This document shows, in pieces, positions 445 to 29,464 of a DNA stretch of 32,251 nt (its first letter is position 1; the number at the start of each line of letters is the position of its first letter). Location of the stretch: positions 1-32,251 of the IMG/VR virus record IMGVR_UViG_3300044819_000115; one strand, given 5' to 3'. Both the position numbers and the translations under genes were made by a program. Source of the DNA: a virus. Below the pieces are notes generated by a model, which saw only the letters and a program-made list of their open reading frames with translations, had not been told where the DNA came from and made no database searches.

Positions 445-1521
445 CTACACCGTGGTCGCGAGTCGCGAGCCGCGCTGCGGGCTGTTGAGCGAGTCGAGTT
501 GGTCCTTGAAGTAGCTCGTCTTGCTCGGCGGTTTGGCCGTCGCGCTCCCGCCCGGGTTCGTGCCGATCCTGCTGGTGGGGCCGATCGTCTTGGGCTTGGG
601 CGGGTTCATGCCGATCTGCCAGGCGCTCGACGCGTCGGCACGCAGCGCACCGGGGGCCTTCACCTCGTTGCCCTGCTCGGCCGCCGCGGTCTTGGCCTCG
701 TTCTGCCGCCGGGCCTCGAGGGCGGCCACGATCCGGCGCGCGAGCACGGTGGCGAACACCGGCGCCGCGGCCGCGGCCGCGTAGGTGCCGAAGGCCGGTG
801 CAAGCTCGAGCAGCGTCTTGGCGACGCCTGGCCCATGCGATGCGGCCCCCTGCAACGCCTTGACCGAGGCGCGGCCCTCCTCGAGGAGCTCGGGCACCAT
901 CGTGGCGCCCACGAGCTCGGGCGCGTGGTCGTACACGAACTGCCGGGTCTTCGACGAATCCTCGTTCGGTGGCGCGAGCACGGATCCAGCAAGCGCTGCT
1001 CGCAGGATCGAACCGATAGCCGAGCTCTGGCCGAGCGTCTTGCCGAGCCCCTGAAAGACCCGGCGGAGCTGGTCGCTGCCGGCGATCGACGAGGCGTGAC
1101 CGATCTCATGGAGCGCGTGCGGCACAGAGCTCGTGCTGAGGGCGATGTGCGGAATGACGTCCTCTTCGGCCACGTCACCAGAGATGCGCGCAAGCAACTT
1201 CCGCAGCGGGCCGAGCTTGTCGATCATCTCGCCGCCCTCGCCGCCGGCGGCGCCGGCGACGATCGGCATGGTTACGCCTTGCTGCTTGGCGAAGTCCTGG
1301 ATCGCGTGGACCTCGTGTCGAGTGAACCCGGCGAGATCTCCGAGCGGCGTGCCGTAGCTCTCTCTGATCGGCTCGCCGCTCATTGTCAGCATCGCGAGTC
1401 CATGCGGGATGCTGTTGAACGCCGACCTCATCACAATCGGAACGCCCTGATAGACCGCGGCGCCAACGAGCGCGGGCGGGAGCCCCGTGTCGGTTCGGAT
1501 GCCGTCCTGCTCGTCGCCCAT
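445..1521 (-). CDS. HExxH putative zinc-metallopeptidase-like protein coupled to the RNA polymerase
   Basis: This 358-residue protein has a HEIGH motif at residues 138-142, the HExxH signature of zinc metallopeptidases. About 70 residues later comes LLEEGRAS (E214/E215), which could supply a third zinc ligand. The pattern recalls membrane-linked metallopeptidases of the YugP/Zn_peptidase_2 type (HEVGHA, later an E-x-x-AS motif), but overall similarity is too weak to assign the family. A hydrophobic Ala-rich stretch lies at about 232-268, and the last 90 residues are Pro/Lys/Ser-rich and probably disordered. The start ATG shares one base with the polymerase stop (TGATG), so translation is probably coupled. 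It is the last gene of its operon. It could be a virion-maturation or injected protease, or a structural protein with a degenerate site. The gene is certain; peptidase activity is only suggested. Confidence 0.6.
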   Translation of the reverse strand: MGDEQDGIRTDTGLPPALVGAAVYQGVPIVMRSAFNSIPHGLAMLTMSGEPIRESYGTPLGDLAGFTRHEVHAIQDFAKQQGVTMPIVAGAAGGEGGEMIDKLGPLRKLLARISGDVAEEDVIPHIALSTSSVPHALHEIGHASSIAGSDQLRRVFQGLGKTLGQSSAIGSILRAALAGSVLAPPNEDSSKTRQFVYDHAPELVGATMVPELLEEGRASVKALQGAASHGPGVAKTLLELAPAFGTYAAAAAAPVFATVLARRIVAALEARRQNEAKTAAAEQGNEVKAPGALRADASSAWQIGMNPPKPKTIGPTSRIGTNPGGSATAKPPSKTSYFKDQLDSLNSPQRGSRLATTV

Positions 1522-4500
1522 CAGTAGACTCCCTTCTTCTTGGACGCGTTGTTGGGCGCCTGTCCGAACTCGGCGCCGTAGGCAAAGGCGGGAACTGGCG
1601 AGTAGTCGTGGATGTCGGTGGTCGCACCGACCGCGGCGCCGCCGACCATCGCGTCGGCGATGTGGTTGTAGCCCATCTGCGCCATCCAGTCGTCGCGCAG
1701 CAATGGCACACGCTTGAGGCCGGCGAGGTAGGGCTCGTGATCGATCGCTTTGGGTCCCACGGTGACCTTGCTCTTCCCGAGACGCTGCAGCACTGACTTT
1801 ACATGGTCCGTGATGATCTCGCCGTGGGTAGTTCCGGGGATGTCCTCGAGCAGCTTGTGGCCGACCGCGTCGACCACCGCGAGCTCGCCGATCGGCGTGT
1901 TGTTGTACGCCTCCGCGACCGTCCAGGGCACGACGTCGCCGGGCAGGAAACCACTGTCACCGGGGTCCTTGCCGACCTTGGTCGTGTTGCCGACCGAGCG
2001 AATCACGGTCTCGACCAGCTTGCGCTTGATGGGGACGCCCTGCCCGTGGAAAGCGCTCTGGATCTCCCCCGAGATGTAGTCCTGGGCGTTGAGCATGCCC
2101 TTGAGCTTGACGAGCTCCTGGGGTTGCACGAGACCCCCCGAGAGGATGTCGCCCTTGTCGACGTTCGAGCCGACGCGGATCTTCGTGTTGCCCTCGTCCC
2201 ACAGATCGCGCTCGACGAAGTGCGGCTTGGCGTCGTCTCCGATGTACACGTTCTTGCCGCTGCCGCTGTCGCTGTCCTCGATCTTGGTGACCTTGCCGTC
2301 TCGCCTGGCGAGCGTGGCCTTCCCTTTCTTGATCTGCTGCATCTGCAGCAGCGCATCGATCTTCCGGTAGCCCGAGACCACGCCGCGGGTGCCGGAGATG
2401 CCGCCGGTGTGGAAGGTTCGCATCGTCATCTGGGTGAGCGGCTCGGACATGGCCTGGCCGGCGATCGCGCCGATGTTGTCGCCGATGGTCGGCAGCACCC
2501 CTTTCTCGGTGAGACCGAAGCACTTCGCGCAGGTGCCCTTGGGGGCTTCGCAGGTCAGCGGCGATCGCACGCGGACCGTCGTGATGTTCTTGCGGTCGCG
2601 CAGCGTGTTGAGCAGCGAGCTCGAAACTAGGTCGTTGTGGGCCGCAAGCACTGTGTTGCCGATGCGGATGTCGGACGCCAGGTAGCGACCGTCCAGATCG
2701 GCGTTGCCGCCCTTGAGCGGAAGGTCGATCCCGTGGGTGGTACCGCAGTCGTCCATCGAGATGACGTTGGTGACCGCCGTCGCCATGATGTCCTTGTTGA
2801 AGGCGCCGGGCTCGGAGGTCTGCAGCTGCTTGTCGGTCGCGGCCGCGCGCGCGCCGTAGAGCGTGCTCCAGTAGTCCGAGAGCGGGAGGCCCTCGGCGAA
2901 CGAGCGCATGATCGGCACGGCCTGCTGGTTGCCGTGGTGGTCGTCGACCATGAAGGGGGCTTGGACGATCTGCTTGATCTGGTTGAGATTGCCGCGAGCG
3001 CCCGACATCACCATCAGGTTGATGTTGTTGCCCTGCTCGGCGAGGCGGTTGCCGAGGGTCTGGGTCAGGTCCTTGTCGGCCGCCGCGATCGCGGCGACGG
3101 CCTTGGCCTTGCCCTCGGGCGTGTCCGTCTTGAACCCAGCCAGCAGGTGCTTGACGTCGGCGAAGATCTTCTTCTTCTCTGGCAGGTTGGGCAGCAGATC
3201 CTTCAGACCGAGCGAGAATCCAGACTGGTACGCGTGATCGTCGCCGGTCTGCTTGAGGCCGGAGACGACCTTGCCGTAGTCGCGCGGCATCGTGGTCGCG
3301 AGGTCGGTCATCAGATCCTTGAGGCCGACCCGGCCGAGCTCGACGTTCTCGTACTTCTTCTGGAGATCCGGCGGCAGCTGCGAGAGGAACTGCTGCTTCT
3401 TGGATGGGTCCCTCGACAACAGGTAGAGCCCGAGCGCGGCCTCGTTCTGCGGCTGGATCATCAGCGCGCCGGTGCCTGGGTTGTAGAGGTTGTTCGAGGG
3501 CAGCATGTTCTGCGCCTCCTTCACCGCGTCGGGGAGGAGGGGAACGTGCACGTTCATCTGATCGCCGTCGAAGTCGGCGCCGAAGCCCTTCACGACGAGC
3601 GGCGGGATCTTGATCGCGCGACCCGACACCATCTGCGGCTTGAAGGACATGATCGAGAACTTGTGCAGCGACGGCGCACGATTCAGGATGACCGGCCGCT
3701 CGCCCATCTCCTGGTGGAGCGCCTGTTGCGCCTGCAGCGTCCGGTCTTGAACGGCTTGATCAGCCTCTTGCGGTGTCAGGCCGCGGGTGACGAGGCGCCG
3801 CACGAGGAACGGCTCGAACAGCTTCCACGACATCTCCTCGGGGAGCCCGACCTCGTCGAGCCCGAGCTTTGGCTCGGGAATAATGGTGCCGCGCCCCACG
3901 AGGTCCTGGCGGCGGCGTAGCACCTGGTACTGGAAGAAGCCGGTCTTGGCCTGCTTGCCCTTGAGCTGCTCGACGATGCCCTGTGGGCGCCGGGCCTCGG
4001 GGTAGAAGGCGATCGGATCTCCGCGGCCTGCGAGCGCCTTGATGCCGTTGTAGAGGTTCTGGCGCGGCTCCGCGCTCACCGAGTCAGGGATGAAGTCCTG
4101 CTCGTTCTGCCACTTCAGCTCCTGGTTGATGAGCCCGACGTCGCGGTAGAGCGTGTTGAGACCGGGATTCGACAGCGAGCCGTCCTCCATCTCGTTGATC
4201 GGCCGGAACTGCGGCGGCATGATCGGGATCTTGGTCTGGACGTAGGCGTCCTCGGGCCGCACCTTGAGCTTCTTGAGGGCGGCGAGGTACTTCAGGCGCT
4301 TGTTGGCCTCGTCGAGCTTCGCGGTGGTCTTCGCGGTCTTCGCGGCGTCGGTCCACGTGGCGAGATCGGCGTCGACGTCGATCTTGCTCAGCAATGCCTT
4401 GATGGCCGTGCCGCCGGTGACCGTCGCCGGATCCTTGTCGGTGTCGGGGCTGATCTCGCCGGTGTCGGGGTGGTACCAGAGCTTGCCGTTCACGAGGCCG

Positions 4501-7500
4501 GTGTACTGGGCCGGCTTGAGGCCGGTGAGAGTCTTGATCGGCGTCTCGAAGATCGGGTTGGGAACCGGCTCGGCGAGCTCGATGTGGCCCCAGCGGGTGC
4601 CGGGCTTGGGGCCGAAGATGATCGGATCCATGAGGCCGCCGGCCTCGGGCTCGAGGTTCTTGCCCTTGAGGAAGATCGGTTCCTTGATCGCGCCGCTGCT
4701 GAGCCTCGAGGTCTCGACGTCGGTCATCGGCTGCAGCACCATCTTCGAGCCGTTGCGCTTGACGTTGACGCCTGCGCCCTTGAGGTACGCCTCGAACTTC
4801 TTGTACGCGAACGTCGGCTCGGGCGCCGGCTTGACCATGCCGGTCGCGGCGCCGGCCTTGAGCCAGTCCCAGAACGGCTGGTTCTGCGACGCCTTGTAGG
4901 TCGCCATCTCGGCCAGATTGGCGCGGCTGCCGTGCGAGAGCATCGCGTACATCGACAGCAGATCGAGCGCCTTCGCGCCGTCGTCGCCGCCGGCGATCGG
5001 ATTGCCGTGGACGTCGTACTTGCCGACCGTGCGTGCAGAGAATCCCTTGGCGGCCTGCTTGTCGAGCTTGAGGAAGTACTGCTTGCCGACCAGGACGTTG
5101 CCGAGAGGAGCACGGCTCTGCGCGTCGAACAGCGGCTCGGTGTCGCTGATCCCTGCCTTGGCGAGCTGGTCGGTGACGGCCTGCGCGTAGTTGTCCGAGG
5201 AGTTGATCGAGTTGTCGACGACATATGGCTTGATCAGCTTGTCGCCATCCATCGTCGCGAGCTTGGAGGCGGCGGTCTCCAAGATCTGCGACGGGTTCAT
5301 GCGGGTAGGCAACCCGAACGGGCTGAGCATGATGTCAACGGGCTCGCCGTCCTCGGTGTGAGGGGCCTGGCCGTCCGGGATGATCTTGGTGATGATGCCC
5401 TTGCCGCCGGCGCGACCGGTGAGCTTGTCGCCGATCTGCGCCGGGTCCTTGGTCTTGACGTAGATCTTCACCTTCTTGCCCATGCGGACGACGTCGACGA
5501 CCTCGCCGTCGTTGTCCTCGGACCACGGCTCCATGAAGCCCTTCTTGGTCCAGTTGCCGCCGAGCCGTCGCATCGCGACGGCGTCCGGGTCGTCGAACCG
5601 TGGCTCTTTCACGCCGACCCACAGCGGATCGCCCCCCTTCAGGATCGCCCCCTTCTTGACGACCCCGTCGGTGTCGAGCTTGCCCTGGCGCTCGAGGTCG
5701 ATCTCGCCAGGCTTGGCGGCCATGAACTTCGCGGTCCCCAACGTCGTGCCCTTGCCCGGGGTGATCACGAACTGGTGCATGTGCTCGGAGGTCAGCTTCT
5801 TGGCGGCCGACTCGGTGATCACCACGCCGTCCTCGAAGTTCAGCCCCTTCCACGGGATGTAGGCCGTGCGCAGGTTGACGCCGATCGCGAGCGTGCCGTT
5901 CCTGGTGAAGTTGGAGTCGGCGATCACGTCGTCCTTCTTGACGGCATCGCCGACCTTGACGATCGGCGTGGCGTCGATGAAGGAACGGTTGTTGAGCGGA
6001 AGGTTGCTGTAGATGGGCTGCTCGACCTCGCCGTCCTTCGTGCCGATCACGATCCGGTGCTTGCTGACGCTCTTCACCGTCCCATCGTCGAGCGCTCGAA
6101 TCGAGAAGCCGGAGCCGATCGCGCTCTCGATCGTCTGGTTGCCGACCTTGACCTGAACGTGCGGGGCCTCGCGGTGCAGGAGCGGGAGCGCCTGCTCGAG
6201 CATCTTGGTCGCGGCGGAGGCGCGCACGCCGGCGGTCGCCCCAAGGAATGGGATCATGTTCGACGCGACCGAGAACGCCTGGCGTGACGTGCGGAGAACG
6301 ACGTCGACGTCCTTGGGGTCGACCATCTGGATCTCACCGTTGACGAGCGCCTTGACCTGTTTCTCGCGCGGCTTGTCGCCGTCGTACTGATCGGGAAAGG
6401 CTACCGTCATGCTGGAGGCTTCGCTGGGCGAGATCCGGCGGATCTTCTTCGCGCGAACGTCGTAGACCGCGGTCTGGAGCTCGTCGCCCTTCTTGGTGGC
6501 ACCGATCGGCAGGTCCATCACCAGCCCGATCTTGTCGCTGTCCGGTGTGTGGATCGGATCGATGAAGCCCATCTGCGACGGGTGAACGGACCGCTCGTCG
6601 TCGCGTACGTTCTCGGGGTTGCCTGCGCCACCCTCGCCGAGCAAGGTGATCTTCGACATGCCGTTGAGCATCTCGATGGGGTTGGTCTGGTTGGTCGTGC
6701 TCGAGAGCTCGGTCCTGGTGAAGAACGAGTTGATGGCCGGGGTGAACTGGTTGGGGCCGATGATCTGCGAGACGTCGGTGGGCGGGTTGCGCTGGTTGTC
6801 GAGCTTACGACCGATCTTCCGTCGCAGGTTGGTCATGGGCTCTTGCAACGAGCCATCCGGCTTGATGAAGCGTTCGCGCAGGATGTCCGAGAGCGAGAAC
6901 ACCTTCTTGTAGCCAAGCGACTGACCGTCGTTCGGCGCGCGCTCGCCGGCGATGGTTCGCAGCAGCTCTTTCGAACCCAGCAAGATCGCCTCAGGCGTCA
7001 CCTTGTGGAAGGCCTTTCCCACCGTCTGCTGAGTGACCTCGGGCCGGAGCTCGGTCTCCTCGAGGTAGCCGGCAATCGACTTGGTCGCGTCATCGATCGA
7101 GTCGAACTCCTCGCCGGTCGCGCTGAAGTACGCGGCCGCTTTGGTCACTGCCTGCGCGGCAGCCTTGGGCTTGAGGGCCTTGTTGCTGGAGAAGATCTTC
7201 TCGCCCCACGCCTTCGACAGCATGCCGTCGGAGATGCCGAGCTGCGAGAGCACCGGATAGAGCGGCACCGACTGCTTGGAGTCGCCCTGCTTGAGCGACA
7301 GCTTGAAGACGTTGTTGCTGTCGAGCTCGATGTTGAAGGGGCGTCCGGCGATGTTGATCTCGGTCTTGGGCTCGCCGTTCTCCTTCTCGATGACGAAGAT
7401 GCCGGGCTTGCGACGTAGCTGGTTCTGCACCTGGTAGTGCTTGCCCTCCACGATGAAGCTGCCAAAGTCCGTCGGCTTGGGCAGCGTCGCGAGCTTGACG

Positions 7501-7769
7501 CGCTTGGCCGTCGAGATCACCTTGCCGGTCTTGCGATCTGTCAGGTCGATCGTGGCGTAGACCGGTACCCCCCAGGTCTTGTCCTTGCGCACGGCCTCGC
7601 GCTGCGACTCCCAGTCCCCGGACTGGCCGGTGTCTTCGACCCGCACGTCGCGCGCCTGCAGGCGCAGGCCGGTCTTGTCGGCTTGAACGTCGAGGGTCTT
7701 GGTCAGCGCCTTGGCGATGTCGGCCTTGACCTGCTCGAACTGGCTCTCGTAGTCGAACGTCGATTCCAT
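1521..7769 (-). CDS. Single-chain beta-beta' fused multisubunit-type RNA polymerase
   Basis: A DNA-dependent RNA polymerase of 2082 residues holds both large catalytic subunits. The beta half (about 1-1010) shows FIVEGKHYQVQNQLRRKPGIF-like N-terminal beta sequence (105-125), the rifampicin-loop equivalent (355-381), NFEDGVV (644-650) and GDKLTGRAGGKG (780-791), whose K782 and K790 match the E. coli beta catalytic lysines. The beta-prime half starts near 1014. It has GHIELA (1061-1066), LPEEM (1309-1313), NRAPSLH (1363-1369), FGADFDGDQM (1396-1405; D1399, D1401, D1403 hold the catalytic magnesium), a bridge-helix region (about 1626-1660), a zinc site C1675/C1740/C1747/C1750 and a trigger loop MTMRTFH (1781-1787). 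The N-terminal beta-prime zinc domain is absent. The ATG is preceded by AGGTGA at good spacing. Divergent plus-strand genes suggest its own promoter in the gap upstream. Activity is likely because every key residue is present; sigma and alpha dependence are unknown. Confidence 0.97.
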   Translation of the reverse strand: MESTFDYESQFEQVKADIAKALTKTLDVQADKTGLRLQARDVRVEDTGQSGDWESQREAVRKDKTWGVPVYATIDLTDRKTGKVISTAKRVKLATLPKPTDFGSFIVEGKHYQVQNQLRRKPGIFVIEKENGEPKTEINIAGRPFNIELDSNNVFKLSLKQGDSKQSVPLYPVLSQLGISDGMLSKAWGEKIFSSNKALKPKAAAQAVTKAAAYFSATGEEFDSIDDATKSIAGYLEETELRPEVTQQTVGKAFHKVTPEAILLGSKELLRTIAGERAPNDGQSLGYKKVFSLSDILRERFIKPDGSLQEPMTNLRRKIGRKLDNQRNPPTDVSQIIGPNQFTPAINSFFTRTELSSTTNQTNPIEMLNGMSKITLLGEGGAGNPENVRDDERSVHPSQMGFIDPIHTPDSDKIGLVMDLPIGATKKGDELQTAVYDVRAKKIRRISPSEASSMTVAFPDQYDGDKPREKQVKALVNGEIQMVDPKDVDVVLRTSRQAFSVASNMIPFLGATAGVRASAATKMLEQALPLLHREAPHVQVKVGNQTIESAIGSGFSIRALDDGTVKSVSKHRIVIGTKDGEVEQPIYSNLPLNNRSFIDATPIVKVGDAVKKDDVIADSNFTRNGTLAIGVNLRTAYIPWKGLNFEDGVVITESAAKKLTSEHMHQFVITPGKGTTLGTAKFMAAKPGEIDLERQGKLDTDGVVKKGAILKGGDPLWVGVKEPRFDDPDAVAMRRLGGNWTKKGFMEPWSEDNDGEVVDVVRMGKKVKIYVKTKDPAQIGDKLTGRAGGKGIITKIIPDGQAPHTEDGEPVDIMLSPFGLPTRMNPSQILETAASKLATMDGDKLIKPYVVDNSINSSDNYAQAVTDQLAKAGISDTEPLFDAQSRAPLGNVLVGKQYFLKLDKQAAKGFSARTVGKYDVHGNPIAGGDDGAKALDLLSMYAMLSHGSRANLAEMATYKASQNQPFWDWLKAGAATGMVKPAPEPTFAYKKFEAYLKGAGVNVKRNGSKMVLQPMTDVETSRLSSGAIKEPIFLKGKNLEPEAGGLMDPIIFGPKPGTRWGHIELAEPVPNPIFETPIKTLTGLKPAQYTGLVNGKLWYHPDTGEISPDTDKDPATVTGGTAIKALLSKIDVDADLATWTDAAKTAKTTAKLDEANKRLKYLAALKKLKVRPEDAYVQTKIPIMPPQFRPINEMEDGSLSNPGLNTLYRDVGLINQELKWQNEQDFIPDSVSAEPRQNLYNGIKALAGRGDPIAFYPEARRPQGIVEQLKGKQAKTGFFQYQVLRRRQDLVGRGTIIPEPKLGLDEVGLPEEMSWKLFEPFLVRRLVTRGLTPQEADQAVQDRTLQAQQALHQEMGERPVILNRAPSLHKFSIMSFKPQMVSGRAIKIPPLVVKGFGADFDGDQMNVHVPLLPDAVKEAQNMLPSNNLYNPGTGALMIQPQNEAALGLYLLSRDPSKKQQFLSQLPPDLQKKYENVELGRVGLKDLMTDLATTMPRDYGKVVSGLKQTGDDHAYQSGFSLGLKDLLPNLPEKKKIFADVKHLLAGFKTDTPEGKAKAVAAIAAADKDLTQTLGNRLAEQGNNINLMVMSGARGNLNQIKQIVQAPFMVDDHHGNQQAVPIMRSFAEGLPLSDYWSTLYGARAAATDKQLQTSEPGAFNKDIMATAVTNVISMDDCGTTHGIDLPLKGGNADLDGRYLASDIRIGNTVLAAHNDLVSSSLLNTLRDRKNITTVRVRSPLTCEAPKGTCAKCFGLTEKGVLPTIGDNIGAIAGQAMSEPLTQMTMRTFHTGGISGTRGVVSGYRKIDALLQMQQIKKGKATLARRDGKVTKIEDSDSGSGKNVYIGDDAKPHFVERDLWDEGNTKIRVGSNVDKGDILSGGLVQPQELVKLKGMLNAQDYISGEIQSAFHGQGVPIKRKLVETVIRSVGNTTKVGKDPGDSGFLPGDVVPWTVAEAYNNTPIGELAVVDAVGHKLLEDIPGTTHGEIITDHVKSVLQRLGKSKVTVGPKAIDHEPYLAGLKRVPLLRDDWMAQMGYNHIADAMVGGAAVGATTDIHDYSPVPAFAYGAEFGQAPNNASKKKGVY

Positions 7770-9239: not shown

Positions 9240-9615
9240 AGACCTGCTCCTGGGCCTGGGTGTCGGCCGCGATGTGCTTGAGCTGCTCGGCGATCGCTGC
9301 CGATTGCTGCTTGGCCGCCGCGATCGCCGCATCGTTCTTGGAAATCGCAGCCACGGCAGCAGCCTTCTCGGCCAAGATCTTCTGGGTCTCTTGCTCGTGG
9401 CGCAATCGCGCGAGCTCGGCGTTGTTGCGGTTGCTGTACCAGGCCCACGCCGCGGCCGCGGCGAGAGCGACCACGATGATGATGAGCGTGCTGATCCACG
9501 ACTTGCCGCCGCCGGCGGGCGATTTGTTGCCGGTGACGATGTCGGCGAGCTTGCCGAGCAGCGCGGTCGGGTCGAGCGCCGGCTTGGCCGCCGGCGGTGG
9601 CGTCGGATCTGCCAT
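9169..9615 (-). CDS. Inner-membrane coiled-coil protein, i-spanin (Rz)-like
   Basis: This 148-residue protein has a short Pro-rich cytoplasmic-type N-terminus, one membrane helix at about 40-60 (STLIIIVVALAAAAAWAW) and a long Ala/Gln/Glu-rich coiled coil from about 63 to 132. This is the layout of an Rz-type i-spanin, which fuses membranes at the end of lysis. It starts on the stop of the holin-like gene (one shared base) and its 3' end overlaps the following secreted protein. Sequence similarity to known spanins is not obvious, as usual for the family, so the call rests on topology and context. It could instead be a tail- or membrane-associated coiled-coil protein. Confidence 0.6.
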   Translation of the reverse strand: MADPTPPPAAKPALDPTALLGKLADIVTGNKSPAGGGKSWISTLIIIVVALAAAAAWAWYSNRNNAELARLRHEQETQKILAEKAAAVAAISKNDAAIAAAKQQSAAIAEQLKHIAADTQAQEQVYAANLRAIDRIRSWRDVDPRAGG

Positions 9616-10199
9616 CAGATGGTCGGTGGCGGGTTCTTCGGATCGGGTAGTGGTTTAGACGGATCGAACTTCGCTTGATCGCCGATACCGGTCGCCGCAT
9701 CATCTCTGCGGATCTTGAAGAGCTCAGACTCGATGAGCCCGGTCAGCTTGGCGCGCGCCATGTCCGGCAGCTTCTGCTGCTCGGCCATCTGCATGGCCCA
9801 GTTCGCCGCGACATCCATCACAGCGCCGCCCGGAATCTTCTTGTCACCGACGGCCGCGAGCGCTTGCTGGCGCGCCCATTCGGCACCGCGGTGTGCGGCG
9901 TCGTTCGCGAGTTTGGCCCAGGCGTCCTGTGTTGCCTGGCTCACCTCGATGTGGAGCTTCTGCTTGATCTTGAACAAGATCCACGTCGTCACCACGCCGA
10001 GGGCCGAGATGATGACCGGCGCCAGGATCGCGAGGACCTGGTTGACGAAGTTCTGCAGCGCGGTAGGTTCGGTGGCGGGGCCGACCGTCGGCAGCACTGG
10101 ATCTGCGTAGGCCAAGATCGGCCAGCAGATCAGCAGGAGGACGAGGACCGCGCTAGCGATCTTGATCAGGTTGCGGAAGGTACTTGCTCTCGTGGTCAT
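9615..10199 (-). CDS. Holin-like protein resembling the LLH family
   Basis: This 194-residue protein has an N-terminal hydrophobic segment (11-32, possibly a signal anchor), a second membrane helix (about 52-76, VNQVLAILAPVIISALGVV) and then a charged helical domain (82-160) rich in Ala and Trp. One membrane helix followed by a long amphipathic domain with an A-x-x-GA-E-W-A motif resembles phage holins of the LLH superfamily; the extra N-terminal segment is longer than usual. Holins form the inner-membrane holes that time lysis. GGAG lies about 11 bases before the ATG. The 5' end overlaps the preceding gene by 47 bases and the next gene starts on its stop. No endolysin is seen beside it. Holin assignment is moderate. 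Confidence 0.55.
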   Translation of the reverse strand: MTTRASTFRNLIKIASAVLVLLLICWPILAYADPVLPTVGPATEPTALQNFVNQVLAILAPVIISALGVVTTWILFKIKQKLHIEVSQATQDAWAKLANDAAHRGAEWARQQALAAVGDKKIPGGAVMDVAANWAMQMAEQQKLPDMARAKLTGLIESELFKIRRDDAATGIGDQAKFDPSKPLPDPKNPPPTI

Positions 10200-10491
10200 C
10201 GGATGATTCTCCTTTGTGGCGCTTCACCGGCTTCTCCCAGTACTGCACCACCAAAATGATCTCTTCGGTCGTGGTGGATCCGCCCTCGGAATCGCATACC
10301 ACGGTCTTGCGCGAGTACTCGCGCGTGTGCTCGTGCACGATGCCCTTGGTGGCATCGGCCATCTGGTTGCGGAAGTCGGCGTAGCCGTCGATACCGGCCT
10401 CTCCGTCCTCAAACATGTTGAACCGCGCGACCTTGAAGACGCCGCGTGGCTTGGCGTTGTTGTCGAACTTGACGGGGGTGACGGTCGCCAT
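10153..10491 (-). CDS. Conserved-looking small protein of unknown function, portal-adjacent
   Basis: This is a 112-residue soluble protein with no membrane segment. The middle part looks beta-rich (EEIILVVQYWEKP at about 76-88) and the C-terminus is a charged, probably disordered tail. It starts on the portal stop (TAATG, one shared base) and its end overlaps the holin-like gene by 47 bases, so it belongs to the same operon. I do not recognise it. Position between portal and lysis genes suggests a minor head or late protein, but nothing in the sequence decides this. Confidence 0.6.
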   Translation of the reverse strand: MATVTPVKFDNNAKPRGVFKVARFNMFEDGEAGIDGYADFRNQMADATKGIVHEHTREYSRKTVVCDSEGGSTTTEEIILVVQYWEKPVKRHKGESSDDHESKYLPQPDQDR

Positions 10492-12563
10492 TACATCGGC
10501 CCTCCCTTACGCTGCGGAGGGAGCATCTGCGGCATCGGCTTGGCGCGATCCGCCGCGGCCGAGGCGGTGTCGCCTGGACCCATCGTCGACAGGATCTGCT
10601 CGACGATGCGCGCCATGTTCGGCATCTTGGTGCGGAGCTCGTTGAGCACCTGCATCCGCTGACCGGGGTCCATCTTGGAGATCCGGTTCGCCCAGTTCTT
10701 CGCCACACGCGCGGCATCGAGCTGGATCACCTGCCCGCCAGCGCCCTCCGAGCCCGCGGCCGCTTGACCGGACTGCTCGCCGGCGACGCCGGCGACGGCT
10801 GCCGGTTGCTGCGCTGCCATCTGCTGTGCGGCCTGTCCGGCCATCTGCTGATCGGCCGCGGAGTCCTGACCTGGAGCGGCCTGTCCCGGCGCAGGCGCCG
10901 CGCCGGCTTGCTGCGGCGCCTGACCGGGCGGCGCGCCTGGCTGCCCCTGCGCCGGCTGCTGACCTGGCTGAACGCCCTGCGCAGCGACCTCGTTCTGCGC
11001 CTGACCATCCATACCCGGCTGACCCGCGGTAGACGTGCCCTGCGCCTCGGCGAAGGCTTCCTGCGAGCGGACCTGGTACTTGGCCGCGATGATCGTGGCC
11101 TCGCCCTGAGCCTCGGCCTGAGCCTTCATCGTGAGGGCCTGGATGCGGTTGCGCTGGTCCGCTTCCTTCTCGATCATGGAGAGCTCGTCGTCGTAGTCGA
11201 ACCCGAGCTCGGTGAGCATCGTGTGATCGGAGATCTTGTTGGCGGCGTTGAGCTGGATGACGATCTGCTTGCGCTGGATGTCGTCCGCCATCTTGAACTC
11301 GGTGAAGCCGATCTCGACGTCGGGGTACCCGAGGTAGAGACGGATCCGGTTCTTGGCCCAGTTGACGAACCGCAGCAGCAGCCGCCGGTACATGAGGAAG
11401 TGGTTCTCGAGCGTGCGCAGCGAGACGCTCGAGCCGGACCACGACAGGCCGCCCATGACGAGCTCGATGGGCACGCCCATGCCGCCGGTGATCTCCTTGT
11501 TGGTGATCTCGATCTCGGGCCCGAGGAGCAGCGCGCGACCGTCCCCGCCGAGTCGCTCGAAGCCCAGCGGCACCGACACGACCGAGACGTAGTTCGGGTC
11601 GATGCGCCAGTTGCGGATCTCCTGCTGGACGGTCTGCTGCCACGTCCCCAGGTTGATGTGCTGGTACGGATCCGCCGACGAATTCGCCTGTGGGAAGATG
11701 AACTCGAGCGGCAGGATGCGCTGCAGTGCGATCGCCTCCTGCGCGCGCCGCAGCACGTAGAGGTAGAACATCCGCCCCATCGAGTGGAGGATGAGCGGCT
11801 TGCCCCAGCCCATGTCCTGCTCGGCGAGCGTCGGACGCTTGAAGTGGAAGATGTTCTGATCCGAGAGCGCGATGTCGCGGTTCTTCTTGAGCGCCTGGAG
11901 GTAGACCTCGGGGATGTCGACGAGGATCTCGCGCACGCCCTGCGCGATCGCCCGCTTCATCTTGTTCGGGATCTTGTAGCGGTACTTCGACCGGCCGGTC
12001 AGCGGGTTGTAGTGGATGTCGATGTTCCGCGGATCCCAGCGAACGAAGTTGATGCCGGTGCGATCGCGGATCGGACGATCCTTGATCACGCCCATGACCT
12101 CCTGTCCGCACGACGGGCTCTTGCACGTGAAGTAGAAGTCGAAGCCCTTGAACTTGAACTCGAAGGTCGGGTCCCCGAGCTTGTGGAGCTGCTCGCACTT
12201 CGGACAGCCGATCCAGCGCACGAATGGCAGGTTGATCGAGACGAAAGCGTTGCCGAACGTGAAGTGATCGAGGCCGATCTCGATGAGGAACGGCTTGAGA
12301 TTGAGGTTGTCCTCGATCAGCTGCTTCCACGCATCGCGGACGTGCTTGTCGTCGGCGTTGTAGACGAAGTCGGTGACCGGGTACTCGGCGATCTTGGTGA
12401 CCACCGACCCGATCATCGGGTCCTTGTAGAAGAAGTACGCACACCACCGGAACAGCTCCTTGACTGTCGGCGGCATGTAGGTCTGCGCGATGTCGAAGAA
12501 CGGTGATGGGTACACCGTTCCGCGACGTCGATCGCGACCGAGGAATGCTTGATCTTGGGCCAT
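10491..12563 (-). CDS. Portal protein with a zinc-knuckle insertion and long Gln/Ala/Pro tail
   Basis: The portal forms the dodecameric ring at the capsid vertex through which DNA is packaged and ejected. This 690-residue protein shows portal features of large myoviruses: a helical N-terminus, IEIGLDHFTFGNAFVSI (about 94-110), a long central region with GWGKPLILHSMGRMFYLYVLRRAQEA-type helical sequence (252-276), a GGMGVPIELVMGG motif (360-372) and the long helical stretch after it. An insertion at 117-155 carries C120-x2-C123 and C147-x4-C152, which could bind zinc. Residues about 505-612 are low complexity (Gln, Ala, Pro, Gly), followed by a small helical C-terminal domain. There is no clear ribosome-binding site before the ATG; a 14-base gap separates it from the previous gene. 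The portal call is firm; subtype is not. Confidence 0.85.
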   Translation of the reverse strand: MAQDQAFLGRDRRRGTVYPSPFFDIAQTYMPPTVKELFRWCAYFFYKDPMIGSVVTKIAEYPVTDFVYNADDKHVRDAWKQLIEDNLNLKPFLIEIGLDHFTFGNAFVSINLPFVRWIGCPKCEQLHKLGDPTFEFKFKGFDFYFTCKSPSCGQEVMGVIKDRPIRDRTGINFVRWDPRNIDIHYNPLTGRSKYRYKIPNKMKRAIAQGVREILVDIPEVYLQALKKNRDIALSDQNIFHFKRPTLAEQDMGWGKPLILHSMGRMFYLYVLRRAQEAIALQRILPLEFIFPQANSSADPYQHINLGTWQQTVQQEIRNWRIDPNYVSVVSVPLGFERLGGDGRALLLGPEIEITNKEITGGMGVPIELVMGGLSWSGSSVSLRTLENHFLMYRRLLLRFVNWAKNRIRLYLGYPDVEIGFTEFKMADDIQRKQIVIQLNAANKISDHTMLTELGFDYDDELSMIEKEADQRNRIQALTMKAQAEAQGEATIIAAKYQVRSQEAFAEAQGTSTAGQPGMDGQAQNEVAAQGVQPGQQPAQGQPGAPPGQAPQQAGAAPAPGQAAPGQDSAADQQMAGQAAQQMAAQQPAAVAGVAGEQSGQAAAGSEGAGGQVIQLDAARVAKNWANRISKMDPGQRMQVLNELRTKMPNMARIVEQILSTMGPGDTASAAADRAKPMPQMLPPQRKGGPM

Positions 12564-16856: not shown

Positions 16857-16875
16857 GACAACTTCTACGACAAAG

Positions 16876-16906
16876 CCGCGCCTGCTCTAAGGCGCGGTTC
16901 TCTTTT
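16876..16906. terminator. Strong intrinsic terminator between convergent genes
   Basis: CCGCGCC (16876-16882) pairs perfectly with GGCGCGG (16891-16897) across an eight-base loop, followed on the plus strand by TTCTCTTTT. It ends 20-50 bases past the plus-strand stop and starts directly after the minus-strand stop at 16911. On the minus strand the tail is the weaker CTTTG, so it is mainly a plus-strand terminator. Confidence 0.75.
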
Positions 16907-24726: not shown

Positions 24727-27123
24727 CTAGATGGCGTAGACGTCGGTCACCGTGGGACCCGTGTTGTCGGTGCGGAGCAGTGTACAGGAGGCGATCTGAT
24801 GGGGCTGTGGAGAAGCGCTCGGTGTGGGCGGAACCGCGACGTTGAACTCGTTGATGGACTTCGTCGAGGCGGTGATCGTCTGAATCGTGAGGGCGGAGGG
24901 GAAGACCAGGTGCAGGCCCACGATCTCGGTGTCCTTGAGGGAGCTGCCCGCCAAGTCGATGTCGGTCTTGGTGTTTCGCGTCGTGGGGGTCGAGAACAGC
25001 GTGCCGTTCAGGATGATGTTTTCGCGACCGATCTTGATCGCATCGTGGTCGAGCTTGCGCTCGCCCGGGATCAGCACGTAGGACAGATCCAGGGTCTCGG
25101 TGATGAGCGCATCGGGGATGTCGAGCGCGATGAGGTGAGAATTGAACCGCTCGAGGACCTCGAAGTAGCCCTGGTAGATCCCACCAATGATGCGCACGAC
25201 ATCGCCGGTCGTGACCCCAAGCGCCGCGAAGTCGACCGATAGATCACGGAAGTTGCCCGCGGCCTGCGTGCCGCCGGTGGGGATCTCGCCGGTCGAGTCG
25301 TTGATGAGGAAGTTGTCGAATGCCATCGACTGATCCCACTCGTTGTTGCTGACCGTGGTGCTCAGGTCGAAGGCGAGTTGGTTAGGTGGCAGGTCCTCGG
25401 TGAACGTGATCGTCTCGTCCTCCGACACCGCGAACGAGAAGATGTACTCGGTCCAAGATGGCTTCATGTTGTCGAGGAACGTCACGAGCTCGGTCACGTT
25501 GACCCGGCTGACGATCGCCTCGGTGAGTACCTGGGGCAGGAACAGGTGGTTCTCGAGCAGCGTCAGTGCTTTCGTCTCGTCAGTGTTGCCGGGCCCGAAC
25601 GTTGCGTTCGAGGTGAGGAAGCGGTCGATGCCTGCGCGGCCGAGCAGGCTTGCGACGAATCCGGGTTGGTTGTTGCGGTCGATGATCGAGACGCCGGTAG
25701 TGAGCGAATCGAACCGAGCAACGGAGTCTCCGCGGACCACAGTGGGAGAGAGGCCGGTCGGGATGCTGTAGGTGATGATCTGTCCGCGTGGATCGGTCAC
25801 GTCGATCACTGCCAGCACGGTGTCGACGCGGGTCACGGTACCGGCCTTCTTGGCGAACGGCAGGCCGAGCAAGATCTGCAGGCCGCGCTGGAGATTGCCC
25901 GGCGTCGAGCCCGTCCAGAACGCGTACCACAGGCCCTGCAGCGCGAGCTTGTAGGCTTCGGAGTTCGATCGATAGAAGTCGATGAGGACGCCGAAGTTCC
26001 GGTACGGGGTCTCGCGGTCAACCCTCGTGGTCTCTGCCCACATCTGGCGGAGGCGCGCATCGGTGGGGCCAAGCGATGCCAGCGGGAACCCGGTGCGCAC
26101 CGAGAGGATGCCGCCCTGCACGACATAGTCGACGTCCTCGACGAGGACAAGCGTTGGATTGTCGACCAGGTCCCTCAGGCTTGGAATCGAGACGATGGCC
26201 TTCGAAACCTTGATGCCATGCGGGAACGCGTTGATCGAGTAGACGACGTCGGTGGCCTGGGTGACCGGGAACTGTTCGACGACCTGAATCTGATCCGTCG
26301 AGGGCACTGCGTTGATGTGGTAGGTGCCGGCGTTCGGACCGTCGGTGATCGTGAGGACTCGGCCCGTTCGCACTGCGCTGAAGTCCACGTTGGGATCGGT
26401 CAACGTCGACGAATCAACAGCTCCTGCCGTGCCCTGGAACGGCAAGGTTGCGGTGCCGTTGTAGGTGTAGGACACGACGACCTGATCGCCGCTATTGATT
26501 GTCGTACCGGCGATGCGACGAATGACCGCGTTGGGCTCGTCGATCTCGTAGTCGAGTCCGAGCGTGTACTGGCTGTGCGAATAGCGGATCGTCACCGGGT
26601 CGCTGACCGGGATCCGGCCGCCATCGAGCGCCTGGATTGTTCCGGTCACGAGATTGACGACGTAGTCGCGGTTGGCGGTGTACTCGAGCGCCCCACTCGA
26701 GACCGAGACGGTACCGGTGATCAGCAACCCATAGCGCAGTGCTCTCACCGAGCTGTCGAAGAAGAGCATTGTCTCTTCTTGGAAGATCTGCCCCGACGGC
26801 GAACTCATCGTCAGCGTGTCGTAGAGGGCGGTCTCGTGCGACAAGTCGGCGTCGATGAACATCGTCAGGGTGAGCGTGTCGCTCTGCGGGAACAGGTCGC
26901 AGCTATTGTCATCAACGGCGAACTTGTTCCACCGCTCAGTCAGGAACACCGGCACCGTTGCGACGGTGGTCGAAAGCGCGGCGTCGATGATCTTCTGCTC
27001 GAGGTTCGAGGCGATCTGGATGTTCGCCGACCAGAAGGTCTCGAACATCTGGCGATCCGCGGTGGGCAGCAAGTCCCACACGTCCTCGAGGAACCGCCAC
27101 AGGAAGGACGAGGAGACGCTCAC
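24727..27123 (-). CDS. Large baseplate/tail structural protein
   Basis: This 798-residue protein has a helical N-terminus (1-60; LWRFLEDVWDLLPTADRQM) typical of baseplate proteins of large myoviruses, followed by long beta-rich regions and a helical segment at 385-425 (YKLALQGLWYAFWTGS, NLQRGLQILLGLPFAKK). Two copies of a small beta module lie at about 235-298 and 622-685. The start is GTG, preceded by GGAG at good spacing, and it overlaps the previous gene by four bases (GTGA). The gene order J-like, small protein, this gene suggests a baseplate wedge or tail-tip protein comparable in place to gpI, but the sequence is much longer than gpI. Structural call firm, exact role open. Confidence 0.7.
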   Translation of the reverse strand: MSVSSSFLWRFLEDVWDLLPTADRQMFETFWSANIQIASNLEQKIIDAALSTTVATVPVFLTERWNKFAVDDNSCDLFPQSDTLTLTMFIDADLSHETALYDTLTMSSPSGQIFQEETMLFFDSSVRALRYGLLITGTVSVSSGALEYTANRDYVVNLVTGTIQALDGGRIPVSDPVTIRYSHSQYTLGLDYEIDEPNAVIRRIAGTTINSGDQVVVSYTYNGTATLPFQGTAGAVDSSTLTDPNVDFSAVRTGRVLTITDGPNAGTYHINAVPSTDQIQVVEQFPVTQATDVVYSINAFPHGIKVSKAIVSIPSLRDLVDNPTLVLVEDVDYVVQGGILSVRTGFPLASLGPTDARLRQMWAETTRVDRETPYRNFGVLIDFYRSNSEAYKLALQGLWYAFWTGSTPGNLQRGLQILLGLPFAKKAGTVTRVDTVLAVIDVTDPRGQIITYSIPTGLSPTVVRGDSVARFDSLTTGVSIIDRNNQPGFVASLLGRAGIDRFLTSNATFGPGNTDETKALTLLENHLFLPQVLTEAIVSRVNVTELVTFLDNMKPSWTEYIFSFAVSEDETITFTEDLPPNQLAFDLSTTVSNNEWDQSMAFDNFLINDSTGEIPTGGTQAAGNFRDLSVDFAALGVTTGDVVRIIGGIYQGYFEVLERFNSHLIALDIPDALITETLDLSYVLIPGERKLDHDAIKIGRENIILNGTLFSTPTTRNTKTDIDLAGSSLKDTEIVGLHLVFPSALTIQTITASTKSINEFNVAVPPTPSASPQPHQIASCTLLRTDNTGPTVTDVYAI

Positions 27124-27404
27124 CTCGACCGCTCCGCGTAGAGCCGAGCTCGCGTCTGCTGATCGACCGGATCCTTCGCGCCCGAGGAGGTTCCGAGCGT
27201 GCCAGTCTGCACCTGAGAGGGCAAGCCGGCGTTGGGCAGCCGCGTGGCCGCCTCATCCGGCGCGAGCCGGTGGAACGGCGGCGGGTGGTCGGGGCTCATC
27301 ATGGCCGCGGGGATCTCGGTGTTGGTGATGTCGGCGCCGCGCTTGTACATACACGACACCGCGCCAACCTTCACGAGCTCGTCGACAAAGCTGAGGAGGT
27401 TCAT
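27120..27404 (-). CDS. Small protein between two baseplate genes, unknown function
   Basis: This 94-residue protein has an N-terminal helix (LLSFVDELVKVGAV) and a Pro-rich, probably disordered remainder. It overlaps its neighbours by four bases on each side (ATGA, GTGA), and AGAGGA precedes the ATG at seven bases, so it is translated. Its place between the J-like protein and the large baseplate protein suggests a baseplate or assembly accessory. I recognise no family. Confidence 0.6.
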   Translation of the reverse strand: MNLLSFVDELVKVGAVSCMYKRGADITNTEIPAAMMSPDHPPPFHRLAPDEAATRLPNAGLPSQVQTGTLGTSSGAKDPVDQQTRARLYAERSR

Positions 27405-29464
27405 ACGAGGTTCCTCTGCAGAGTGATGTTGCGCGAGCGGAAACGAGCGATGCGCGGGGAGAGCGGCCGGTCGGTCGGATCCGGAATGGGATCATCGGGA
27501 ATGGCCAGGTCGCCTGCGGTGTTCGGCGAGACGAAGACCACCGTCCCATCCTCGTTGTGGATTTCACCAAGGAGGGCTTGCGCACTACCCAGATCGACGC
27601 GGCGCGCCCCGTTGTTGTAGAGCAGGTCGACGATGTCGGAGATCTCTAGAGCATCACCTTCGTTCGTGGCATCGATCAGCTGCTTTACCAGCGTGGTCAT
27701 GTCATCGACCGAGATCGCGGTGGCCGAGGTGCTGGTTGCAATCGTGTAGACCAATGGCTCGACCGAGTCGACGAACACCGGAATGAACTCGCGCGCAAGA
27801 AGCGACGCCGACTGGCTCTGATTGTCTCGATCGTCCATGAATGCCTGGATGGGGGGCACCTCATTGGCGACCTCGTAGTTCACCCGAACCGCGGTACCCA
27901 CCAGCGAGTCATCGAACTCGATGTAGTTGTCCTCGTTCCACGAGAACCGCAACGTCGACTGGGTGACGACGAAGACATAGTCCGCGCCCTCGCCCACGCC
28001 GAACCCCCCTTCACCGAACCCGCCTGCGCCGAAGCCGCCTGCGCCGTTCAGGACCGCGCCTGTCGGATTCCCTGAGAGCGAGTCGAGGACCTGGATTGAA
28101 TCGATGTCCATGATCGGGGTGTCAGTGATCGTGTAGTCGGTGCGATCCACCGAGCGCACCGTCTTGATGATGTCCACCGAGATCGGGTTGTACTCGTACG
28201 TCACCATCAGGTTGTCATCGACGTGGAAATCCACGCCGGTCTCGTCGGTCACGCTGAAGTTTCCGTAGATCGTGATCGCGTTGTTGCTCAGATGGTCCTT
28301 GACCGTGTACGTGCCGGCGACGTCGGCCGGGTTGTCCACCGTCAAGATCATCCCCGTCCGCACACCAGCGAACGCCCCGGTCTTGGTCAGCGTCTTGCCT
28401 GTGCTCACCACGCCGCCGGTGCCATCGACGTGAAAGATCGCCGACACCGGCAGTCGGGCGATGAGCCCATCGGCGTCATCGATAGCGTAATCAGCGCCCT
28501 CCGTGAATGGGCCGAGCCCGTCCACTGTCATGACCGTGGGGGCAACGTTGGTGCGATCGATGGACCCGTGGCTGAGGCTGTACTCGACGCTCTGAACGAG
28601 CAGCGCGATTGCATCGGACGCGACGCGCTGGCGGGTTGTGTCGACCTCGAGGCCGAAGATGTCCTTGGATCCGGGGGTGAAGGTACCGGTCTTGACGTAG
28701 ACATCGACGTTGCCGCCGATGTGCACGTTGTAGACGATGTCGCGCATCATCTCTGGATCGTGGAATCCGATCGGCTGGATCTCCTCGATGGTCGTGAAGT
28801 TCTCCGTGAGCGTCACGATGATGCCGCGACCGGTCACCAGCGCGCGCACCGTCACCGCGACCTTGATGCGATCGATCAGCTGGGTGTTGGTCTCGCGATC
28901 GCGCCCCTGGCCGACCGCGAACAGGTTGGTGACGTTCGCAACGCCCTGGGGCTCCGCTTCCATCGTGGTGATCGCGCCGGCGTCGACGTTGTAGTCGGCG
29001 CCCTGGTCGAGCGCGATGATCGGGATGTCGACGTAGAATAGCGAGCCGTCTTGGTTCAGTGCCATCTCGGCGCTGGTCACCGACACCGGCTCGGAGTTCG
29101 AGTAGCGCTGGCCTGCGGGGCCGCGCCAGATGAGGACGGACATCGGCGAGCTGAAATCCTGGGGCTCGAAGAACCGGACGCGCTCGACCGTTGACCCGAT
29201 CGCCCCGGGGATGCGTTCGACGAAGGCGTTCGACGCCAGACCGTCGACGATGTCCTCCGGGAATGCGTCCGGATCGGACGCTCCCAAGATCGTCAGGATC
29301 GATTGGCTGGCCTGCACGGCCGTTAGCTCGTCGATGATAGGCTGGAGGATGATCGATTGCGGATCGATCATCAGGCCGGTGGTCGGTACACCATTGCCGG
29401 TATCGAAGTTCGGATCGAACTCGAGCAGGCGCTGAATGATGAAGTCGCGGACTGGAAGCGTCAT
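27401..29464 (-). CDS. Baseplate J-like protein
   Basis: Baseplate J/gp6-like proteins form the wedge ring that joins gp25-like proteins to fibres. This 687-residue protein has the N-terminal helix (1-60), a beta domain with RGPAGQRYSNSEPVSV (114-129), VDIPIIALDQGADYNVDAGAI (145-165) and GRDRETNTQLIDRIKVAV (187-204), all typical of the family, with a T-x-x-RG motif at about 211-214. The C-terminal half is extended by extra beta regions, including one shared with neighbours (352-415), and a Gly-rich repeat (473-493). It starts on the stop of the gp25-like gene (TGATG). The C-terminal extension is longer than in ordinary J proteins. Assignment is good. Confidence 0.8.
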   Translation of the reverse strand: MTLPVRDFIIQRLLEFDPNFDTGNGVPTTGLMIDPQSIILQPIIDELTAVQASQSILTILGASDPDAFPEDIVDGLASNAFVERIPGAIGSTVERVRFFEPQDFSSPMSVLIWRGPAGQRYSNSEPVSVTSAEMALNQDGSLFYVDIPIIALDQGADYNVDAGAITTMEAEPQGVANVTNLFAVGQGRDRETNTQLIDRIKVAVTVRALVTGRGIIVTLTENFTTIEEIQPIGFHDPEMMRDIVYNVHIGGNVDVYVKTGTFTPGSKDIFGLEVDTTRQRVASDAIALLVQSVEYSLSHGSIDRTNVAPTVMTVDGLGPFTEGADYAIDDADGLIARLPVSAIFHVDGTGGVVSTGKTLTKTGAFAGVRTGMILTVDNPADVAGTYTVKDHLSNNAITIYGNFSVTDETGVDFHVDDNLMVTYEYNPISVDIIKTVRSVDRTDYTITDTPIMDIDSIQVLDSLSGNPTGAVLNGAGGFGAGGFGEGGFGVGEGADYVFVVTQSTLRFSWNEDNYIEFDDSLVGTAVRVNYEVANEVPPIQAFMDDRDNQSQSASLLAREFIPVFVDSVEPLVYTIATSTSATAISVDDMTTLVKQLIDATNEGDALEISDIVDLLYNNGARRVDLGSAQALLGEIHNEDGTVVFVSPNTAGDLAIPDDPIPDPTDRPLSPRIARFRSRNITLQRNLV
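28001..28045 (-). repeat. Three tandem 15-base units coding for G-x-GGF
   Basis: Three consecutive 15-base units inside the J-like gene encode GAGGF, GAGGF and GEGGF, followed by a decayed GVGEG. Neighbouring copies differ by one or a few bases, so this is a recent or slippage-prone expansion. The segment forms a flexible glycine loop in a beta-rich protein. Confidence 0.75.

Follow-up and report, generated by a model that had tools for sequence, protein, structure and literature searches.

Can a phage encode the two large subunits of a bacterial-type RNA polymerase (RNAP) as one polypeptide, and would such a fusion be a peculiarity of a single genome or the habit of a whole lineage? The question is raised by a 32,251-base IMG/VR virus record, referred to here as the window, which was analyzed over its full length, is classed as linear and is possibly a fragment. 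A first-pass annotation made from the letters alone had described a fusion of beta and beta' with 2082 residues at 1521-7769. The frame does exist as one piece, but its strand had been left unstated: it is read on the minus strand, from 7769 to 1521, with zero internal stops, and on the plus strand the same frame is interrupted by stops.

One reading frame for both large subunits

The window contains no ambiguous bases, and an AGGTG stretch is found a short way ahead of the ATG of the RNAP gene. The GC content at third codon positions is 0.92-0.97 before, across and after the beta::beta' junction. Pfam domains of both subunits follow each other in this single frame in the order Rpb2_3, Rpb2_6 (E 1e-44), Rpb1_1, Rpb1_2 (E 8e-28), Rpb1_4 and Rpb1_5, and among the NCBIfam models the best match is to PRK09603, which describes a beta/beta' fusion (E 7e-157, far under the strict cut-off of the model). 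The profile search, proposed in the first-pass annotation as a check on its claim that the hallmarks of both subunits occur in one frame, thus bears this claim out, and the strength of the bacterial profile matches agrees with its further statement that this phage fusion is much closer to bacterial RNAP than the YonO, crAss-like and phiKZ-like enzymes.

The contig carries the tailed-phage hallmark genes for portal, baseplate J and tail protein (Table 1). Between the portal and RNAP genes lies a 194-aa ORF (9615-10199, minus strand) whose N-terminus is hydrophobic and which weakly matches Phage_holin_6_1 (E 0.0036, below the cut-off). A stem of 10 pairs followed by a T-rich tail, which resembles a terminator and is readable on both strands, is located at 16874-16899 in the gap that separates two gene blocks. 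Searching the window for promoters and repeats returned repeats mostly within coding sequence and sigma-70-type sites that were not in excess. A weak Chimallin match of a 186-aa ORF (E 0.014) and a match to BAG6 were dismissed as chance.

Table 1. Position of the single-chain RNAP gene, its parts and its recognizable neighbors in the window.
Feature	Position	Strand	Residues	Remarks
Single-chain RNA polymerase gene, whole	1521..7769	-	2082 aa	ATG at 7769
Beta part	4755..7769	-	about aa 1-1005	Collinear with E. coli RpoB; Pfam Rpb2_3, Rpb2_6
IGDKLTGRAGGKG	5397..5435	-	aa 779-791	Pair of catalytic lysines in the beta barrel, equivalent to E. coli K1065 and K1073
Junction	4686..4904	-	aa 956-1028	Beta C-terminus directly into beta' N-terminus
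Beta' part	1524..4742	-	about aa 1010-2082	From alignment, model and fold match; without N-terminal zinc-binding domain
GADFDGDQMNVH	3546..3581	-	aa 1397-1408	Three catalytic aspartates of the beta' barrel
Second zinc site	2520..2753	-	aa 1673-1750	Cysteines corresponding to E. coli beta' C814, C888, C895, C898
TQMTMRTFHTGG	2400..2435	-	aa 1779-1790	Trigger loop
Gene of unassigned function	445..1521	-	358 aa	Directly downstream of RNAP; 12 of 93 loci have a homologue at this position
Portal protein gene	10491..12563	-		Upstream of RNAP; PHROG portal, E 2.6e-7
Tail protein gene	27123..24727	-		Recognizable neighbor on the RNAP strand
Baseplate J gene	29464..27401	-		Recognizable neighbor on the RNAP strand

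Architecture and predicted fold of the chain

In the alignment, the window protein is collinear with E. coli RpoB and RpoC from end to end. The beta part does not contain the large inserts of E. coli RpoB, and the zinc-binding domain at the N-terminus (E. coli C70-C88) is the only part missing from beta'. This domain was present in all ten bacteria compared, and its four cysteines are missing from the window as well as from 83 of 83 relatives in the single-chain set and 9 of 9 in the set with a split beta'. The second zinc site of beta' is retained in 76 of 78 sequences. Landmarks on either side of the junction are 61 residues apart (family median), compared to about 81 across both chain ends in E. 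coli, indicating that no linker was added at the junction.

The core catalytic residues are retained in both halves, namely E813/D814, K1065, K1073 and R1106 of beta and R425, D460, D462, D464, R780 and the trigger-loop histidine H936 of beta' (E. coli numbering). Across the family, the catalytic residues are invariant or nearly so, the trigger-loop histidine being conserved in 76 of 78 sequences. The aspartate motif of beta' reads GADFDGD in the window and has N at the first position (NADFDGD) in 73 of 83 relatives. Conservation is lacking at R275 and E295, the sigma contacts of the clamp helix. Because residues of the rifampicin site are altered in comparison to E. coli (Q513S, D516N, H526G and S531T), the window enzyme is predicted from its sequence to be probably insensitive to this drug.

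Structure prediction, which had also been proposed as a check, gave confident AlphaFold2 models that cover both barrels. Alignments of the window's own relatives served as input, and the models comprise aa 530-1560 with both barrels and the junction (pLDDT 86.9, pTM 0.75) and aa 1016-2082 (pLDDT 83.7, pTM 0.76). With the latter model, Foldseek retrieved solved bacterial beta' chains at TM scores of 0.79-0.85 by query length. The model of aa 530-1560 matched bacterial beta' at about 0.46 by query length over approximately 650 columns, and beta-type chains scored lower; such moderate matches are expected, since this query holds pieces of beta and of beta'.

A clade of fused phage polymerases

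The first-pass annotation had called a fusion of this kind in a virus unusual, a view that was corrected by the comparison with related sequences. A protein scan detected six other loci with at least four distinct sequences, all of them co-linear single ORFs with about 59-62% identity over aa 4-2082, which is far more than chance would produce. Two alignment-based scans of IMG/VR found 531 and 471 encoding stretches, of which the best 80 of each were kept; the matches that were not read need not all be members of the clade. The sample comprised 133 distinct sequences including the window, with the relatives chosen by similarity, and was read with profiles for four parts of the protein. The C-terminus of beta and the N-terminus of beta' were found in one ORF in 129 of these sequences, three further ones are joined likewise, although an in-frame insert interrupts their match to the profile, and the remaining one is cut by a contig end. 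The same junction is therefore shared by 132 of 132 evaluable sequences, which derive from many metagenomes and three cultured phage records. In 77 sequences, the polymerase is one chain throughout (median 2079 aa), in about 40, among them those of Vibrio phage D69 and Salmonella phage Arash, a separate gene encodes the C-terminal part of beta', and the others are truncated or incomplete. Fusion of beta and beta' is thus the standard architecture of a large clade of phage RNAPs and not a rare single case. In pairs of relatives, all three thirds of the gene showed purifying selection wherever dS could be measured, the pairs being other than the window, whose nearest relatives are about 62% identical; the pair L028/L036 may serve as an example (dN 0.094, dS 1.06).

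Several members of the sample show interruptions of their own. In-frame, intein-like inserts of about 340-510 aa were observed in L009 (at aa ~883), L053, L089, L097, L099, L103, L104, L105, L170, L012, L013, L168 and L215. Several of them have Cys as first residue and GN or HN as last ones, followed by Ser, Thr or Cys, and they often interrupt active-site motifs (GRHGNKG, NADFDGD or the trigger loop). In Vibrio phage D181 (L023), compared with D69 (L021), a homing endonuclease gene splits beta, and beta' of L158, L159, L161, L162, L163 and L165 is interrupted close to profile position 85, five of these six contigs having a gap of about 3 kb. These interrupted genes possibly contain introns. 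L024 (CALEMW010000041.1), which belongs to the contigs of a bacterial metagenome-assembled genome, also carries a single-chain RNAP and is probably a phage contig that was binned by mistake. Conversely, L134, L135, L136 and several GenBank "phage" records of the OR84xxxx series contain ordinary separate rpoB and rpoC genes, apparently as host contamination. A 2040-aa open frame antisense to the RNAP gene of L070 (6674-12796, minus strand) is probably a by-product of high GC content.

Separate trees were calculated for beta' (52 rows) and beta (51 rows) with a quick search under LG+C20, in which the cellular sequences were those of ten diverse bacteria only, with no archaea, eukaryotes, Helicobacter, Wolbachia or published mReC rows. 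In both trees, the phages stand apart from the ten bacteria with a support of 100, and the window pairs with L027, followed by L002, L003, L004, L030, L031 and L034. The sequences with a separate C-terminal part of beta' form one clade (support 98 and 99), which is placed beside the single-chain sequences in the beta' tree (support 73) and nested among them in the beta tree. The beta::beta' fusion is common to single-chain and split-beta' members. The polymerases of phages GN1 and Carin-5, whose two subunits are separate, form long branches outside the fused clade. Considering all of these data, we have next to no doubt that the ORF in the window encodes a phage RNAP of the bacterial type with a real beta-beta' fusion.

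Possible role of the fused enzyme in the phage

Of 93 loci, 68 have a portal homologue that precedes the RNAP gene on its own strand, at a median distance of about 1 kb. Downstream of RNAP, a terminase gene of the phrog_675/GpA type is present in L002, and L079 has a DnaJ-domain gene (19686-20534) downstream of its single-chain RNAP. In Arash, whose homologues of the RNAP are gp206 and gp216, one small gene lies between the portal gene and the gene for the fused beta::beta'N. The product of the latter was the most-detected protein in Arash virions, in which the C-terminal beta' product was also abundant and a sigma factor was present (PMC10585845). Given this position after the portal gene and the abundance of the homologues in Arash virions, the polymerase is probably carried by the virion; it would most likely be packed in the head, be ejected together with the DNA and start early transcription.

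Concerning other subunits, the statement in the first-pass annotation that no alpha or omega is visible extends from the window to 29 related records. A single beta gene was found in each of 29 related records, some of which are fragmentary. Alpha was found neither in 25 records with one model nor in 30 records including the window with a second model, and omega was found in none of 30 records. Sigma-70 regions 2 and 4 occur in one ORF in several single-chain members, and no sigma factor was detected in the closest relatives of the window. At 44890 of G012, the closest relative, there is a sigma-region-4-like match (E 4e-4; L222), and the ORFs at this place yield no clear sigma factor. Because contigs may be fragments, a lack of alpha, omega or sigma proves little.

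The reading that we favor, and consider fairly probable, is that of a packaged single-chain core that is free of alpha and omega, obtains promoter recognition from the phage and transcribes phage genes. The sequence shows that the ORF encodes a bacterial-type core as one polypeptide whose active site is intact. The covalent link between the two barrels may replace the role of the alpha dimer in assembly, so that the chain could fold and transcribe without alpha or omega. Promoter choice would then come from a phage-encoded factor, which may be sigma-70-like in some members. Against this reading stand the source of the virion data, a phage whose beta' is in two parts, the lack of a sigma factor among the closest relatives of the window and the unconserved sigma contacts of the clamp helix. 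More tentatively, and with rather more reservation than confidence, we propose that, throughout an ancient phage lineage, the RNAP called "multi-subunit" is such a virion-carried single polypeptide, independent of alpha and omega, in which the fusion is ancestral and beta' was broken later in one subclade.

Alternatively, the same polymerase might not be packaged but be made early by the host RNAP and transcribe middle or late genes. Many phages use such enzymes, as exemplified by the non-virion RNAPs of phiKZ-like phages and gp64 of P23-45 (PMC7598289, PMC10770324), only one RNAP was found per record, which could fill either role, and the authors of the Arash study allow that the virion enzymes might be carry-over (PMC10585845). 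However, the location of the gene next to the portal gene within the head module and the rank of the Arash homologue among the virion proteins argue against an enzyme that is not packaged, and we regard it as unlikely, although it deserves serious attention. We are more doubtful that the chain requires host alpha, perhaps also omega or sigma, to assemble or to start and thus acts as a hybrid enzyme. The overall folds predicted for beta and beta' are bacterial-like and no phage alpha turned up in the records examined, both of which would suit such a dependence, but the RNAPs of jumbo phages have no alpha, and activity in its absence is documented for one such enzyme (PMC7598289), and the covalent junction would lessen the need for an assembly platform.

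If the protein were RNAP-like but inactive and served as a structural component or decoy, this could explain the high abundance of the homologue in Arash particles (PMC10585845), but such a role is very improbable in view of the conservation of all tested catalytic aspartates, lysines and arginines and of the trigger-loop histidine, and of a dN far below dS. The first-pass annotation itself had named two observations that could overturn it, a tree placing the protein within host rpoBC and a missing stop or misjoined contigs between the halves, and neither was made. A recent capture of host rpoBC that fused in the phage, or a fused rpoBC of the Helicobacter/Wolbachia kind, would account for the good match to bacterial models, including the fusion model, but deserves hardly any weight, as both halves fall into one phage clade outside the ten bacteria sampled and the zinc domain is lost in every phage member. 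An assembly artefact, missed stop or frameshift between neighboring genes has nothing but the metagenomic origin of the record in its favor and a negligible probability, since the junction recurs in every evaluable sequence, cultured phages included, the codon bias is continuous and the two half-trees agree.

If the chain works alone, it would represent a one-gene RNA polymerase of the bacterial type onto which cellular structures and mutants can be mapped, and it would allow direct tests of whether alpha and omega serve anything past assembly and whether the zinc domain of beta' is dispensable. The reading of the mReC lineage and of its deep RNAP phylogeny would change as well, because two concatenated "subunit" markers would be one gene. 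The cultured relatives Arash and Vibrio phage D69 put experiments within reach.

Comparison with known systems

We did not find an explicit description of this fusion in the literature searched, which excluded most subscription journals and supplements, so that an earlier description is possible; the nearest mention was a passing remark on derivatives with fused DPBB domains. The fused clade is probably identical with the published mReC lineage, for which Weinheimer and Aylward (2020) reported 97 contigs whose beta and beta' sequences cluster separately from those of cells (PMC7481178). The main text of that study mentions fusion only for crAss-like phages and none for mReC. Similar to mReC, beta and beta' of the window can be aligned to the cellular subunits, fall into a clade apart from bacteria and stem from tailed-phage contigs of IMG/VR, and two of the published examples come from metagenome 3300017989, which is also the source of the single-chain sequence L040. 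The GADFDGD of the window differs from the NADxDGD in the detection filter of the authors, which is a filter and no biological definition. The capsid family PF07068 had no match in 13 records, nor in the control genomes. The terminase family PF03237 matched in 7 of 28 related records, in 5 of them above the cut-off.

Among cultured phages, Arash (gp206/gp216) and the Vibrio phages D69, D148 and D181 share the same junction, the lack of the zinc domain and a portal gene just upstream, but they encode the C-terminal part of beta' in a separate gene and have only about 29-32% identity to the window. The phiKZ/AR9-like enzymes are likewise two-barrel phage RNAPs without alpha or omega, and the Arash group has its beta' break, which follows the barrel, in the same region as these enzymes (PMC7598289). 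They consist, however, of at least four polypeptides, with two enzymes per phage, in contrast to one chain in one copy here. YonO and the RNAPs of crAss-like phages and P23-45 also combine both barrels in one polypeptide but have little or no similarity to cellular RNAP (PMC7481178, PMC10770324), whereas most of the length of the window protein is covered by matches to bacterial profiles of beta and beta'. Repeated fusion of RNAP subunits has precedent (PMC7281927), and yeast linear plasmids encode a fused RNAP as well. In the fused rpoBC of Helicobacter and Wolbachia, beta is followed by beta' end to end and in the same order as in the phage chain. The models of the bacterial fusions comprise 2839-2890 positions, compared to 2082 aa in the window, and the phage chain differs from these bacterial fusions in the loss of the zinc domain and in its position outside the ten sampled bacteria, which included neither genus.
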